A stretch of 64,000 bases of DNA from Sphingobacteriaceae bacterium. GTDB taxonomy: Bacteria > Bacteroidota > Bacteroidia > Sphingobacteriales > Sphingobacteriaceae. This document shows, piece after piece, positions 3-38,985 of this stretch. The stretch covers positions 28,240 to 92,239 of the forward strand of contig JAGIAD010000015.1 in the NCBI GenBank assembly GCA_017745075.1, read 5' to 3'. The first letter of the stretch is position 1; every line of letters starts with the position of its first letter. A program made the translations under genes and the position numbers. The notes beneath the pieces were generated by a model. It had not been told where the DNA came from, searched no databases, and worked only from the letters and a program-made list of their open reading frames with translations.

Positions 3-110
3 CGTGGTAATACCCAATATTGGGAATACGATGCACTTCAAAGACCAAAGTTTGAATTGGATAGAGATAAAAATATTGTCAAATCATACGATTATCATAT
101 TAAAAATTAA
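3..110 (+). CDS. C-terminal end of an upstream YD-repeat/RHS-family protein (partial, truncated by window edge)
   Basis: Frame 3 reads RGNTQYWEYDALQRPKFELDRDKNIVKSYDYHIKN then TAA at 108-110. The YWEYDALxRxKxxxDRDKNIVKSYDYH pattern is YD-repeat-like and it sits 8 bp before an RHS protein. No start codon in the window, so it is absent from the ORF track. Confidence 0.7.
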   Translation, partial: RGNTQYWEYDALQRPKFELDRDKNIVKSYDYHIKN

Positions 111-118
111 CGCTCAGG

Positions 119-3100
119 ATGAAAAAAATAACCAAATACCTTACTGCATTTTTTTTGCTGTCGGGAGTAATTTCTTATGGTTTAAAGGCACAAGAAGCTA
201 AAATTGTAAATGCGTATAACCCATTGCAACCAAATATTACAGCATCAGGTTCTATCACTTTAGTCCCGGGTTTTTTTGTGCCACAAGGTAATAGTTTCAG
301 AGCCTATATTTCTGGAATTAGCCAAAGCCAGCCTTTTGCGGCACAGCCCAGTGCTAACCGAACTTATGGAAGCATAAAAATATTTAAAATACCTGGAATC
401 AAAACCGCCGGTCAGGCCAATCAACAAAATTTCCTGACCAATCAGGTTTCGCAGGTTATAGAGTACCAGGACGGATTAGGCAGGCCAGTACAACAGGTTG
501 CACTTTATGCATCGCCTACAGGTAAAGATGTGGTACACCCCATTGCTTACGATAATGCAGGACGACAACCCAAACAATACCTTGCTTATACCAAAGCCAA
601 TAATCAGGGACAATACAATGCACAAGCATTGGATGGCGGTAGCGGATATGCATCTGGAGAACAATATAATTTTTACCAAAGTGGCAGTACAGGGAACTTT
701 AAATCTACTACTTTCCCCTATGCTGAAGCACGCCTGGATCCTTTAGGGCTTAACCAGACTGAGCAGGGGAGTGTGGGAGCAATACATCAGCTTGCTGGTG
801 GGCATACTACTAAAACCAATTTAACCCTCAGTACAACAGCTGATGGTGTGTTGAATTGGCAACTTACCAGTAATGGTTTGAGTGCTTCAGGTAACAATGT
901 TTTAGAAGGATTGATTAAAGAAATTGCAAAAGATGCCAATTGGGTAGCGGGGCGGGCAGGTACTAAAGAAAGTTTTACCGATGGTAACGGAAGAAGAATG
1001 GCTGATCGATTTTTCATAACAGAGAACCAGTCTGCCACCACTTACTATGTTTACGACCAGATTAAACCAGATAGATTACTTTATATACTTTCGCCAGGAT
1101 TTAATGCCCAGCAGATTGTATTGGGCGATAGCACTTTTAATCGTTATGTTTATGCTTACCGTTATGATCAGCGTAACCGTACAATTGCTAAAAAAATTCC
1201 AGGGGCAGGTTGGCTGCACATCGTTTATAACCAGCTGGATCAACCGGTAGCCACTCAGGATTCGGTGCAGCGTATTGCTAATGAATGGAGTTACGTAAAG
1301 TACGATGTACAGGGACGGATTATACTTAACGGAAAATATGCAACAACTGCTGATCGAATAAACTTACAAGCTCAGTTAGATGCTGCAGTAAATAATTGGG
1401 AAAAACGCGATGTGAATGGTACTTATGGTTATAGTAATGTTTCCTTCCCAACGGGTAACAGTACAGAAGTATACAAAGTAATTTATTATGATGATTACGA
1501 CTTACCATCATCCTGTCCGTTTGCTACGGCGCCTGCGGGGAGTACGTCCATAGTTACAGGCTTGCCTACTGCAAGTCTGACACGCGTACTGGATACACAG
1601 AAAATGTTATGGACGGTAAATTATTATGATGAGGATGGGCAACCTATAAAAGTATATGCAGAGAATAATATAAATGGTACTGATGAGTTGACTAATACTT
1701 ACGCATTTACAGGGCAGCTGGAAAGTGCTCAACGGATAAGTACTACAGCCAATTCGACTGTTAGTATTGGCGAACGTTATGTGTACGATGACAGTGGCAG
1801 ATTATTGCAAACCTGGGAAAAGATAAACAACCAACCAGAAGTTTTACTTTCAGAAATGGTGTATAACGAACTGGGGCAGGTAGCGCAAAAGAAATTACAC
1901 TCGGTTGATGGTACCAGTTTTTTACAAACGCAATCTTACAGTTATAATGACCAAGGCGCCTTGAAAACCATAAATAGTGCCGATATTACGGGAGGTGGTA
2001 ATGCCAAATTTGGCATGGAACTTAAGTATGAAGATGCTGCCATACCGCAATATAATGGTAACATTGGTGCAAGCCAATGGAAAGTGGCCCGCACCGGCAC
2101 CTCCCCCAAAATGGGGTACGACTACCAGTTTGACGCTGTTGGACGCATTGTTGCTGCCGAATCGTTGACTAACGGCAATAAGGATAAGAATTATAGCGAA
2201 TATATTAAGTACGATCAATTAGGTAATATCCGTGACCTGGGACGCTACGCCAATATCAATGGGGTACGTACTCAAATAGATAGTTTAAATTACCAATACC
2301 AAGGGGGCAGACATACCCGCATAGATGATGCTACCGGAAACCCACTTGGTTTTAGCGAAGAAATACAAACAGACGATGAATATGGTTATGACGGCTTTGG
2401 AAGGGTGATTAGCGATAAGAATAAGAACATTACAATAGCTTACAACGCTGTTTCGTTGCCCAAGCTCATTACCTGGCCCGGAACTGGCCGGACTACCGAA
2501 TATACTTATAGCGCCGATGGTACAAAACTAGGCTGGCAGCATACTGTTAATGGCACCAGTGAGGGGAAATTATATAACAGCGGTTTAGAATATGCTGTGG
2601 TTAACGGTGGTGCACCCGTGTTAAAATTTATACAAACATCCGAAGGGCGGGCACGTTTTAACGGAACCGCTTTTGTATATGAATATTATCTGACCGATAA
2701 CCTCGGTAATGTAAGGGCCACTATTGATGCTGATCCGGCAGATCCAACACAATTAACTGCAAGAGTTCTACAGGAACATAGCTATTACCCTTTTGGTGCT
2801 ACCATGCCCGGTGCTGATATCAATTTTGCAAGTGGAGAGGCAAATAGCTATCTTTATAATGGTAAAGAGTTAGATGCCGAGTTAAATCAGTATGATTCCG
2901 AAGCCCGTTTTTATGATGCAACTATTGGGAGGTGGAGTGCTATAGACCCCATGAGTGAAAAGTATTTTGGTATAAGCGCGTATAGCTATGTATTTAATAA
3001 TCCGTTGATGTTTATTGATCCTAGTGGAATGGACCCCGAAGGGCCGGGAGGTGGCTATGTTTTAGTTGAGCCCGGACTTTGGTTCAACAAGGAAAAAAAT

Positions 3101-3835
3101 GAATATTTTGCTTACACTTATTCAGGCCCCGATGGAAGTGCTGCGGCTGCCTTTGCCGAACATCAAGCATTTTTTGGTGGAACTTTTTTTGGTGCCATGA
3201 ATGAGATGGCTGGGTGGAAAACATATAGTCTTATGGAGACGCCACAACAGCGTAAGGCCAGAGAACAGGCTGCAGAACGAGCCGCTTTAAGAGCCCGGAA
3301 CGAAGCAATATATAATGCCAAGGCCAAGCAGGGAAATTTCGGGACAAATGCTAAACAAGGGAATAAGGAAATCGATTGGTATGGACCTGGAGGAAAGATG
3401 AACTGGATCCTTGGAGTATCAGCTCTTGCTTCGGAAAAATTTTCTGGAATTAGCCGAGTCGGAAATAACCTTATAATATATAACGCTACAAGAACTGGGA
3501 GGGTTTTTTATGCAAATCAATATGTTAATACATTCGGCTTGTCTAAAGTAGGTGGTTTGCTAGGGAAGGTATCATTTGGTATTGGTGTTGTGATAGATGG
3601 CGTAGGTGTTTATAATTATTATAAAAACCCCAAAAGTGTAAATGCAGTATCACCAGGTAAGTTTGGACTAAATACTGGAGTAGGGGCTTTTGGACTTACT
3701 GGGGTAGGAACAATACCTGCAATAACTTACTTTGGAATAGATGCCTTTTATCCAGGTGGCATACAAGGCTATGCAAATGATTATAAAAAAGTGCTAGACA
3801 ATAATCCTGGTTATTATCCCCATTTTAGTTTTTAG
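119..3835 (+). CDS. DUF6443 / RHS repeat-associated core domain protein, candidate polymorphic toxin
   Basis: Signal-peptide-like N-terminus; YVYDDSGRL-type repeats; RHS core YYLTDNLGNVRATID...YYPFGATMPG...YNGKELDAELNQYDSEARFYDATIGRWSAIDPMSEKYFGISAYSYVFNNPLMFIDPSGMD; variable Gly-rich hydrophobic C-terminus after the core. Confidence 0.9.
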   Translation: MKKITKYLTAFFLLSGVISYGLKAQEAKIVNAYNPLQPNITASGSITLVPGFFVPQGNSFRAYISGISQSQPFAAQPSANRTYGSIKIFKIPGIKTAGQANQQNFLTNQVSQVIEYQDGLGRPVQQVALYASPTGKDVVHPIAYDNAGRQPKQYLAYTKANNQGQYNAQALDGGSGYASGEQYNFYQSGSTGNFKSTTFPYAEARLDPLGLNQTEQGSVGAIHQLAGGHTTKTNLTLSTTADGVLNWQLTSNGLSASGNNVLEGLIKEIAKDANWVAGRAGTKESFTDGNGRRMADRFFITENQSATTYYVYDQIKPDRLLYILSPGFNAQQIVLGDSTFNRYVYAYRYDQRNRTIAKKIPGAGWLHIVYNQLDQPVATQDSVQRIANEWSYVKYDVQGRIILNGKYATTADRINLQAQLDAAVNNWEKRDVNGTYGYSNVSFPTGNSTEVYKVIYYDDYDLPSSCPFATAPAGSTSIVTGLPTASLTRVLDTQKMLWTVNYYDEDGQPIKVYAENNINGTDELTNTYAFTGQLESAQRISTTANSTVSIGERYVYDDSGRLLQTWEKINNQPEVLLSEMVYNELGQVAQKKLHSVDGTSFLQTQSYSYNDQGALKTINSADITGGGNAKFGMELKYEDAAIPQYNGNIGASQWKVARTGTSPKMGYDYQFDAVGRIVAAESLTNGNKDKNYSEYIKYDQLGNIRDLGRYANINGVRTQIDSLNYQYQGGRHTRIDDATGNPLGFSEEIQTDDEYGYDGFGRVISDKNKNITIAYNAVSLPKLITWPGTGRTTEYTYSADGTKLGWQHTVNGTSEGKLYNSGLEYAVVNGGAPVLKFIQTSEGRARFNGTAFVYEYYLTDNLGNVRATIDADPADPTQLTARVLQEHSYYPFGATMPGADINFASGEANSYLYNGKELDAELNQYDSEARFYDATIGRWSAIDPMSEKYFGISAYSYVFNNPLMFIDPSGMDPEGPGGGYVLVEPGLWFNKEKNEYFAYTYSGPDGSAAAAFAEHQAFFGGTFFGAMNEMAGWKTYSLMETPQQRKAREQAAERAALRARNEAIYNAKAKQGNFGTNAKQGNKEIDWYGPGGKMNWILGVSALASEKFSGISRVGNNLIIYNATRTGRVFYANQYVNTFGLSKVGGLLGKVSFGIGVVIDGVGVYNYYKNPKSVNAVSPGKFGLNTGVGAFGLTGVGTIPAITYFGIDAFYPGGIQGYANDYKKVLDNNPGYYPHFSF

Positions 3836-36444: not shown

Positions 36445-36469
36445 TGGCAGAAATTTTAATGGAACTGAT

Positions 36470-36723
36470 CGTCCTTTCGACCGAAGCGCAGCGAAATGGA
36501 GAAATCTATAATAGAGTTCGTCATTCTGATCCGTACCTATCGGATTTATTTCAGAATCTATGAAATGGAAAGATCCTTCGACTCCGCTCAGGATAACAGA
36601 GCGCATCAGGTGCGTAAAAAAGAAATGAGGATTCCACAATAGCAGAATCCCCATCATCTAAATTAACGCTCTCATATACATAAACGCTGTAAAAACGATT
36701 TATTATATTAGCTATGAAATTTT
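36470..36723. repeat. about 250-bp direct repeat, copy 1
   Basis: Near-identical to 36770..37028 at about 300-bp spacing (TTTCGACCGAAGCGCAGCGAAATGGAGAAATCTATAATAGAGTTCGTCATTCTGATCCGTA...). Confidence 0.9.
36615..36720 (-). ncRNA. candidate small RNA/structured element, copy A
   Basis: Minus strand CGTTTATGTATATGAGAGCGTTAATTTAGATGA followed by ATGGGGATTC/GGAATCCTCAT hairpin and TTTCTTTTTT. Confidence 0.5.
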
Positions 36724-36769
36724 TTTTCGTCTTGATTTGTGAATGCCCCTGTGGTCATTGCCCCCCTGG

Positions 36770-37028
36770 TCGTCATTTCGACCGAAGCGCAGCGAAATGG
36801 AGAAATCTATAATAGAGTTCGTCATTCTGATCCGTATCTATCGGATTTATTTCAGAATCTATGAAATGAAAAGATCCTTCGACTCCGCTCAGGATGACAG
36901 AGTGCTAGGATGCCTAAAAAAGAAATGAGGATTCCACAATAGCAGAATCCCCATCATCTAAATTAACGCTCTCACATACATAAACGCTATAAAAACGATT
37001 TATTGCGTCAGCTTTAAATTTTTTTTCA
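36770..37028. repeat. about 250-bp direct repeat, copy 2
   Basis: Second copy of 36470..36723 with a few substitutions. Confidence 0.9.
36915..37020 (-). ncRNA. candidate small RNA/structured element, copy B
   Basis: Same 33-nt block (one substitution), hairpin and T-run as copy A, offset 300 bp. Confidence 0.5.
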
Positions 37029-37107
37029 TTTTTCGCATTGGTGTGTATCGAACGAAACAAAATAAATGTTTTCATAATGTGTAACATTTAACTCTTATTT
37101 TTACTTT

Positions 37108-37797
37108 ATGGAAAAGACCAATCAAAACCAGCAGGATGCCGAAAAACAGTCTGCCGCCCTGGCAGCTGTAAAATATATTAAAGATGGCGATGTTGTGGGC
37201 TTAGGTACAGGTTCTACCACCACTTTTGCCATTAAAGCATTGGGAAAACTGGTAAAGGAAGGTTTGAATATTACCGCTGCAGCCAGTTCTGTTGCGACAG
37301 AAAAACTGGCCAAATCTTTGGGCATCGAAATTCTCGATCTGGGCAGTTTAAGCACAATCGACATCAGTATTGACGGTGCCGACGAATTTACCGAATCGCT
37401 CGATTTGATTAAAGGTGGAGGTGGTGCACTTTTCAGAGAGAAAATTATTGCTTCTCTAAGTAAAAATGCCATCGTAATTACTGATGCTTCGAAAAAGGTA
37501 AAAAAACTGGGTGCCTTTACCGTACCTGTTGAAGTTATTTCATTGGCATACCAGTATGTTTTTGATCAGATCGCCCTATTGGGTGGGCAAGGCAAACTCA
37601 GGGTAAAAGAAAATGAAACCTTTATTACCGATAACGGAAATGTGATTATTGATGTTGATTTTGGCCTGATTGATGATCCTGCTAAGCTGGCTTCCAATCT
37701 CAACCAGATTAATGGTGTGCTCGCCCATGGTTTGTTTATCAACATCACCTCGAAAGTAATTATGAGCGAAGGGATGGAAATCATCATCTTTGAATAA
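37108..37797 (+). CDS. rpiA: ribose-5-phosphate isomerase A
   Basis: VGLGTGSTTTFAIKALG, DISIDGADEFTESLDLIKGGGGALFREKIIA. Confidence 0.96.
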   Translation: MEKTNQNQQDAEKQSAALAAVKYIKDGDVVGLGTGSTTTFAIKALGKLVKEGLNITAAASSVATEKLAKSLGIEILDLGSLSTIDISIDGADEFTESLDLIKGGGGALFREKIIASLSKNAIVITDASKKVKKLGAFTVPVEVISLAYQYVFDQIALLGGQGKLRVKENETFITDNGNVIIDVDFGLIDDPAKLASNLNQINGVLAHGLFINITSKVIMSEGMEIIIFE

Positions 37798-37990
37798 GGT
37801 TGGTTATTGGTTCAGTAGTCATTGGTTTATTGGTTAATGGTTCATAGTCTAATCTAAAATAGTTCAATCGCCATTGGTCAATAGTTTATAGTCAATAGCC
37901 TGGTGCGTTATTACTTCATAGCCATTAGTTCTCAATTGATTATTGATTTTTGATTTTTGATCATTGATTATTGGTCTTGATTATTATCCT
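37798..37990. repeat. low-complexity intergenic tract
   Basis: Iterated TTGGTT/CATAGTC/TTGATTATTGATTTTTGA-like words with no credible ORF. Confidence 0.6.
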
Positions 37991-37994
37991 TCAT

Positions 37995-38052
37995 CGTCAT
38001 TGCGAACCGAAGGGCAGGGAGGGGTGTGAGCGTGAAGCAATCTTATCCGAAG
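37995..38052. repeat. dispersed REP-like repeat, family 2 (half element)
   Basis: CGTCATTGCGAACCGAAGG...GTGAAGCAATCTTATCCGAAG, shared with 63872..63977. Confidence 0.6.
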
Positions 38053-38270
38053 TTCATTCGTTATTGATGTATTGAAAATTGAATATTTGTGCTTGATCAT
38101 CTGCCAACTGGTCAATGAAAATTGTTTATTGGATATTGATCATCCTGCATTCACCGGTAAAATCACATCTTCTTAAATTTTCTAAAAATTTTTACCGACG
38201 GTTTTATTTCACTCACCGATAAAACATCGTAACTGGAGGAAAAACCATTCCCTGGCCTGCATTTCTGTGC

Positions 38271-38278
38271 TACATTTG
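38271..38278 (+). promoter_or_regulatory. candidate Bacteroidota -7 promoter element
   Basis: TACATTTG matches TAnnTTTG, 20 bp upstream of the ATG at 38299. Confidence 0.45.
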
Positions 38279-38298
38279 AATCATAAAAACAAACAGTA

Positions 38299-38688
38299 AT
38301 GGAAACTTTCATCAAAAAAAATCACGCTGATAAACAATTAGGTTTAGGCATTTTAATCTTAGTAATCGGTTCTGTATACTTACTTAGAAATACAGGCGTC
38401 GACGTTCCTCATTGGATATTGAGATGGCATACCATTATGTTTGCTGCAGGCTTGTGGATAGGTTACCGCAAAAATTTTGAAGGAAACGGCTGGCTGGCAT
38501 TAACCATCATAGGTGGCCTATTTACCTTTAGATCAATCAGCATTTTTGATTTCAGTCTATCGGGGATCAGTGTTCCTTTGGTATTAATCGGATTGGGTAT
38601 ATACATGGTCATGAAACCTAAAAAAGTTCAAAACTTCGATCAATATTTCGAAAAGAAACCAGTTGACTTTGACAATAAAGCAGAATAA
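38299..38688 (+). CDS. DUF5668/LiaF-like small membrane protein
   Basis: LGLGILILVIGSVYLLRNTGVDVPHWILRWHTIMFAAGLWIGYR, four hydrophobic segments. Confidence 0.75.
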   Translation: METFIKKNHADKQLGLGILILVIGSVYLLRNTGVDVPHWILRWHTIMFAAGLWIGYRKNFEGNGWLALTIIGGLFTFRSISIFDFSLSGISVPLVLIGLGIYMVMKPKKVQNFDQYFEKKPVDFDNKAE

Positions 38689-38714
38689 AAATTATAACTC
38701 TATCATATATTTTG

Positions 38715-38749
38715 GAAAGGGACATTTTTGAACAGGTGTCCCTTTTTTT
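38715..38749 (+). terminator. intrinsic terminator
   Basis: AAAGGGACATTTTTGAACAGGTGTCCCTTTTTTT. Confidence 0.8.
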
Positions 38750-38870
38750 ATTGGTAAACTGCGCAGAGCATGGAGCTGGGAGTATAGGATGCTTTGCAAT
38801 ATGCAAAACCACAATTGGAAAAGCGTATAGAGCTTGAAGCACTATGCCCTCTGCTGTCCACTCCATGCTG

Positions 38871-38985
38871 AAAAAAGAAACGGGGATTCCACCCTTAGGC
38901 AGTATCCCCGTCATCTAAATTAACGCTCTCATATACATAAACGTTGTAATTGGAATATATTGTGTTGAGTTTAATTTTTTTTTAT
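38871..38985 (-). ncRNA. candidate small RNA/structured element, copy C (could be the glxA-like gene 3'UTR)
   Basis: Minus strand CGTTTATGTATATGAGAGCGTTAATTTAGATGA, then CGGGGAT...ATCCCCG hairpin and TTTCTTTTTT; stem changed compensatorily relative to A and B. Confidence 0.5.

Follow-up and report, generated by a model that had tools for sequence, protein, structure and literature searches.

A candidate family of trans-acting small RNAs with a shared 18-nt 5' block in Pedobacter

An 18-nt sequence block, GAGAGCGTTAATTTAGAT, has been found at the predicted 5' end of a family of candidate small RNAs in Pedobacter, where it would serve as a shared antisense seed acting in trans, a reading to which we give a probability of about 70%. 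In this family, the 18 nt probably block the translation start of certain membrane-protein mRNAs, judging from complementarity to the regions in front of two start codons. The first-pass annotation had proposed a small RNA not described before, made up of an unpaired seed and a terminator, and this is supported by the occurrence of the block in 61 of 61 sampled Pedobacter genomes, by terminators at 177 of 184 testable copies, by promoters at a fixed distance, by the mostly unpaired state of the block and by the complementarity kept at the two start-codon regions.

Copies in the window

The window, a stretch of 64,000 nt analysed here from a draft source genome of 5.83 Mb in 31 contigs, carries a 33-mer on its minus strand at 36654-36686 (copy A), 36954-36986 (copy B) and 38911-38943 (copy C), with 0, 1 and 0 mismatches, respectively, where the number of chance matches expected from 100 dinucleotide shuffles is 0. 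In all three copies a stem-loop and TTTCTTTTTT lie directly 3' of the 33-mer, and the T-A to C-G and G-T to G-C exchanges between the A/B stems and that of C are real and preserve the pairing. The 33-nt block does recur as had been claimed, but it is composed of two parts: its first 13 nt, CGTTTATGTATAT, are the -10 region of a promoter (CGTYTATATA, ECF-sigma-like), and its last 18 nt, together with GA, are the predicted start of the RNA. Only these 18 nt (hereafter the block), and not the whole 33 nt, are invariant genome-wide, and the substitution in copy B falls in the promoter part.

Copies A and B are not independent, as they share a tandem duplication of about 300 bp (a 116-nt family at 91% and a 140-nt family at 96% identity, with a spacing of 300/301), and the window therefore holds two independent places. 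Copy C, suggested earlier to be a 3'UTR form, probably does not arise as one, since a strong promoter of its own precedes it, with the highest score in the 2.46 Mb scanned. The coordinates of these features are given in Table 1.

Table 1. Features of the window, with positions counted from its first nucleotide
Feature	Position	Strand	Description
Copy A small RNA	36616..36673	-	Block 36673-36656; hairpin terminator and T-run 36655-36616; 5' end inferred from promoter spacing
Copy A promoter	36674..36706	-	-35-like ATAATAAAT from 36706; -10 CGTTTATGTATAT 36686-36674; class I, PWM 28.1
Copy B small RNA	36916..36973	-	Block 36973-36956; terminator 36955-36916
Copy B promoter	36974..37006	-	GCAATAAAT ... 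CGTTTATGTATGT; holds the single substitution of the 33-mer; PWM 23.8
Copy C small RNA	38871..38930	-	Block 38930-38913; terminator 38912-38871
Copy C promoter	38931..38963	-	ACAATATAT ... CGTTTATGTATAT; PWM 30.0, highest in 2.46 Mb
Tandem duplication, unit of ~300 bp	36465..37026	.	Carries A, B and the flanking TCATCCTGAGCGGAGTCGAAGGATC repeat (36465-36604, 36766-36905)
AAATTAACGCTC	104..115	+	Perfect complementarity to the block over 12 nt; lies 3 nt 5' of the start codon (ATG at 119) for a DUF6443 protein of 1238 aa, a candidate target

Family size and distribution

What had been described as a three-copy family has 12 exact copies of the block in the source genome and, in a prophage-like region, one variant ending in GAA. 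A hairpin follows directly in 12 of the 12, the hairpins being mostly unrelated in sequence, and a reversed-pattern control with a 20-nt version gave 0 matches in this genome. The sampled Pedobacter genomes hold 1-15 copies each, where the control gave three matches in total over all 61. Phylum-wide, 4 of 297 sampled genomes are positive, three of them within Pedobacter and one within the same taxonomic family; in other genera of that family 1-3 copies are usual where an exact match exists, and many genomes have none. Named records with the block are almost all from Pedobacter, the rest being Arcticibacter, Desertivirga and a few more.

The block also occurs on 31 contigs in IMG/VR, and the viral contigs that were checked bear phage genes (terminase, portal and protease on L202; replication helicase on L215). 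At the viral loci L211, L212 and L213 the block copies directly adjoin tRNA genes. Single GAA variants are present in several Pedobacter genomes, and at a prophage-like locus of source contig C30 (L341:8270-8396) two blocks, GAGAGCGTTAATTTAGAA and the degenerate GAGAGGTTAATTTAGAT, are followed by a hairpin, similar to a pair of GAA and GAT blocks on viral contig L215. A group II intron was considered for the C30 variant and dropped, given the prophage-like flanks and the second, degenerate block.

Anatomy of the predicted RNA

For the anatomy of the RNA, 220 distinct copies were aligned. The hairpin and T-run that directly follow the block in 177 of the 184 testable distinct chromosomal copies are found in about 17 of 184 once the sequences are shuffled (range 11-21), and the hairpins vary in sequence by locus, with 103 distinct terminator starts among the 184. 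The predicted RNA has a median length of 56 nt, in which block positions 1-13 are at least 0.9 unpaired and AGA (positions 15-17) tends to pair with a TCT of the tail, the latter partly by inspection. The nucleotide just 5' of the block (-1) is a C or T in 181 of the 189 chromosomal copies, which together with the promoter spacing places the 5' end of class I and class II RNAs (promoter classes, below) on the first G of the block or beside it. A peptide encoded by the block (MYMRALI*) was rejected by eye, as it is not kept across copies and the sequence before the block varies. Of 236 copies, just 2 overlap an ORF of 80 aa or longer.

A long form, class III, has a TAnnTTTG-like box, a hairpin with the loop GGUGAGAG, a second small hairpin, the block and the terminator, with the block internal, 35-45 nt into the RNA. 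Compensatory (double) changes have been found at 6 of 11 predicted pairs among 11 sequences of this form.

Promoters and a putative sigma factor

The region upstream of the block falls into three classes, of which class I includes the window copies. In class I, A[CT]AATAWW is followed by CGTYTATATA, mostly 20-21 nt on (start to start), and the CGT element begins at -13/-12 from the block in 90 copies chosen for having both boxes, while class II has the Bacteroidota housekeeping -7 box TAnnTTTG just 5' of the block. Most family copies have an ECF-like promoter: a -10 box with CGT marks ECF-type promoters in Flavobacterium, a related member of the phylum (PMC9723704), and the predicted promoters have this element at a constant spacing from the inferred RNA start, as would be expected of an ECF-sigma-dependent sRNA. 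A different promoter, GTAACCTT...GTATAAGTAT, precedes the block in L062, L101, L128, L140, L147 and L154 (other genera and some Pedobacter), and may reflect a further sigma specificity acting on this RNA.

When a class I matrix was run over 2.46 Mb of the source genome, the best four matches were the four family copies present there. The fifth match (C11:529292, plus strand, in L296; score 23.5) lies before an intergenic sequence that lacks the block and combines a hairpin at its 5' side with an intrinsic terminator; this may be a further small RNA controlled by that sigma factor, and class I matches at ordinary genes have lower scores. This promoter specificity suggests that the sigma factor concerned may act mainly on small RNAs. 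A broader proposal, which we put forward only as a speculative one, is that Pedobacter has an alternative sigma factor with a regulon made up mainly of small RNAs, whose top sites (in the 2.46 Mb, 42% of the genome) would drive copies of a single 18-nt seed and another RNA that ends in a terminator, and that phages encode the same seed, some in a two-block version, and so plug into the host network.

Candidate targets

To rank candidate targets by pairing with the block, 1872 start regions in the 2.46 Mb (42% of the source genome) were used. Compared with shuffled blocks, the start regions of these 1872 genes are not enriched in complementarity, which leaves either a small number of targets or a different partner for the seed; for 23 susC-like genes, complementarity is weaker than for other genes, not stronger. 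No 16S match was found in the draft assembly when rRNA was sought as a pairing partner.

The three best sites belong, in order of rank, to a 171-aa membrane protein (C25:22131-22647), a DUF6443 protein with many paralogues (window 119-3835) and a DUF805 protein (C25:456333-456780). From other Pedobacter genomes, five orthologues of the 171-aa protein (41-49% identity) and twelve of DUF805 (38-82%) were collected, and the complementary site directly 5' of the ATG is kept in most of them, less clearly in DUF805 L448 and L449. Without the source gene, the mean pairing energy is -13.3 kcal/mol for the 171-aa protein and -12.0 kcal/mol for DUF805, both of them picked as top matches and each with orthologues that share ancestry and are not independent. 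Equally low energies were reached by 1 and 2 of 1500 shuffled blocks and by 2 and 0 of 800 dinucleotide shuffles for the 171-aa protein and DUF805, respectively. The pairing signal of both families peaks only at -30..0 from the ATG, and they rank first and second of 27 orthologue families with the source gene included. The check for complementarity to mRNA 5' regions, proposed at the outset, has given conserved pairing at two start-codon regions and no enrichment over the 1872 start regions. At least one other high-ranking site, C25:5371, is not conserved in L121.

By inspection, the site in the 171-aa protein gene fills the short stretch from a TTAATTTG box to the ATG. A class III copy lies about 1.5 kb from this gene on the same strand, both in the source genome (C25:22131-24249) and in L184. 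The pattern TTAACGCTC-N(0-10)-ATG exceeds its reversed control in the 61 genomes, but it was set aside because its matches are mixed with antisense matches on the sRNA copies and with many ATGs without a long ORF.

Other readings of the block

Two imperfect target sites would not call for perfect conservation of all 18 nt, and this speaks against an antisense seed. The block could be a putative protein-binding site, with many small RNAs titrating an RNA-binding protein, as CsrB does, and the start-region complementarity secondary. All 18 of its positions are essentially invariant, GAGAG recurs in the long-form loop GGUGAGAG, two blocks stand in one stretch at the source prophage-like locus and on viral L215, the source genome encodes one RRM_1 protein, and target enrichment is absent across the 2.46 Mb; however, in most copies the RNA holds just one block, and two gene families have kept position-specific complementarity. 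We consider titration unlikely.

The fixed distance between block and promoter in the short forms would also suit a DNA element downstream of the promoter, such as a regulator site at the transcription start, with the terminator merely insulating neighbouring genes. This is very improbable, given that the block is non-palindromic and, in the long form, internal, after a hairpin with compensatory changes. The copies also lie between genes in varied orientations, with no common downstream gene to be driven.

An origin of the copies in the decay of a mobile or dispersed repeat, as the A/B tandem duplication with its neighbouring repeat and the copies on viral contigs might suggest, is already disfavoured and scarcely credible, since only the 18 nt and the promoter elements are common to copies with unrelated terminators, and since the copies are found not within a mobile repeat alone but at different places kept in synteny across species, among others beside rpiA (25 copies), a LiaF-TM gene (17), a glyA-like gene (16) and an idi-like gene (13).

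Proposed mechanism and significance

With the block read as an antisense seed, each gene would consist of a promoter, GAGAGCGUUAAUUUAGAU beginning no more than one nucleotide from the transcription start and an intrinsic terminator, giving an RNA of about 56 nt, whose seed would pair with target mRNAs over the ~20 nt that precede or reach the start codon and thereby block ribosome loading. Several signals probably feed this one seed, as the copies differ in promoter (ECF-like, TAnnTTTG, and TAnnTTTG with a structured 5' extension), and the phage copies would use it as well.

To our knowledge, little is known of trans-acting sRNAs in Bacteroidota. In the literature searched, none was found described for Pedobacter, and a text search for the block sequence found no paper. 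The family appears, on sequence grounds, to be new, and its proposed antisense-seed type is already known. It is genus-wide and conserved in sequence and place, and lends itself to experiments, since the seed is identical throughout, the RNA ends are predicted and two putative target genes with conserved sites have been named; the viral copies suggest that the host seed is also borne by phages of related hosts.

Comparison with known systems

Neither the window nor 11 loci of the family gave a match to any Rfam 15 family at or above the gathering score, and copy C had no Rfam hit at E<=10. An RNA motif is already known from Pedobacter, the Pedo-repair motif (RF01715; PMC2864571), and no Rfam match to it was obtained at any family copy searched. 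In Bacteroides, the sRNA GibS (RF04182) has an unstructured 5' seed, a terminator and the non-canonical promoter PM2 (PMC7366714), and the Pedobacter family likewise combines an unstructured seed, a terminator and a non-canonical promoter. The GibS consensus, GUGUUUUUCAUAGUAUUAGAU..., is without the block, and its covariance model matches 0 of 118 genomes, the source genome included. The sole GibS match in the window (38663-38751, on the opposite strand; 25.4 bits, where the cut-off is 115) is a weak chance match to GibS/Ref55, explained by a strong terminator-like hairpin at 38704-38748, between the LiaF-TM gene (plus) and copy C (minus).

Enterobacterial MicA and RybB are short, sigma-E-dependent sRNAs with a conserved seed at the 5' end and an ECF sigma promoter, which require Hfq and target porins. 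They represent two or three unrelated seeds, whereas the Pedobacter family has one seed in a dozen copies.

The closest likeness is to FopS of Bacteroides thetaiotaomicron, a family of paralogous sRNAs with 14 members (PMC11697453). Like FopS, the Pedobacter family is multicopy (12 copies), with a shared single-stranded 5' seed followed by an intrinsic terminator (177 of 184), and the two also have in common housekeeping promoters, 12-15 copies per genome, phage occurrence and start-codon targets, which for Pedobacter are predicted ones. The predicted Pedobacter RNA is about 56 nt long as against ~65-70 nt for FopS, and FopS binds the RRM protein RbpB, where the Pedobacter source genome encodes its one RRM_1 protein. 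Unlike FopS, which targets susC-like starts, the Pedobacter block does not favour the start regions of susC-like mRNAs, and its family has mostly ECF-like promoters, a structured long form and a distribution limited to Pedobacter and the genera close to it. The FopS seed R1' is related to R1 of GibS, and the Pedobacter family is set apart from FopS by description, not by sequence. Regulation of the FopS type, with many copies, one seed and start-codon pairing without a Shine-Dalgarno sequence, is thus suggested to have arisen more than once in the phylum or to be general there, and by analogy the Pedobacter family would work like FopS, although it is not filed as FopS.
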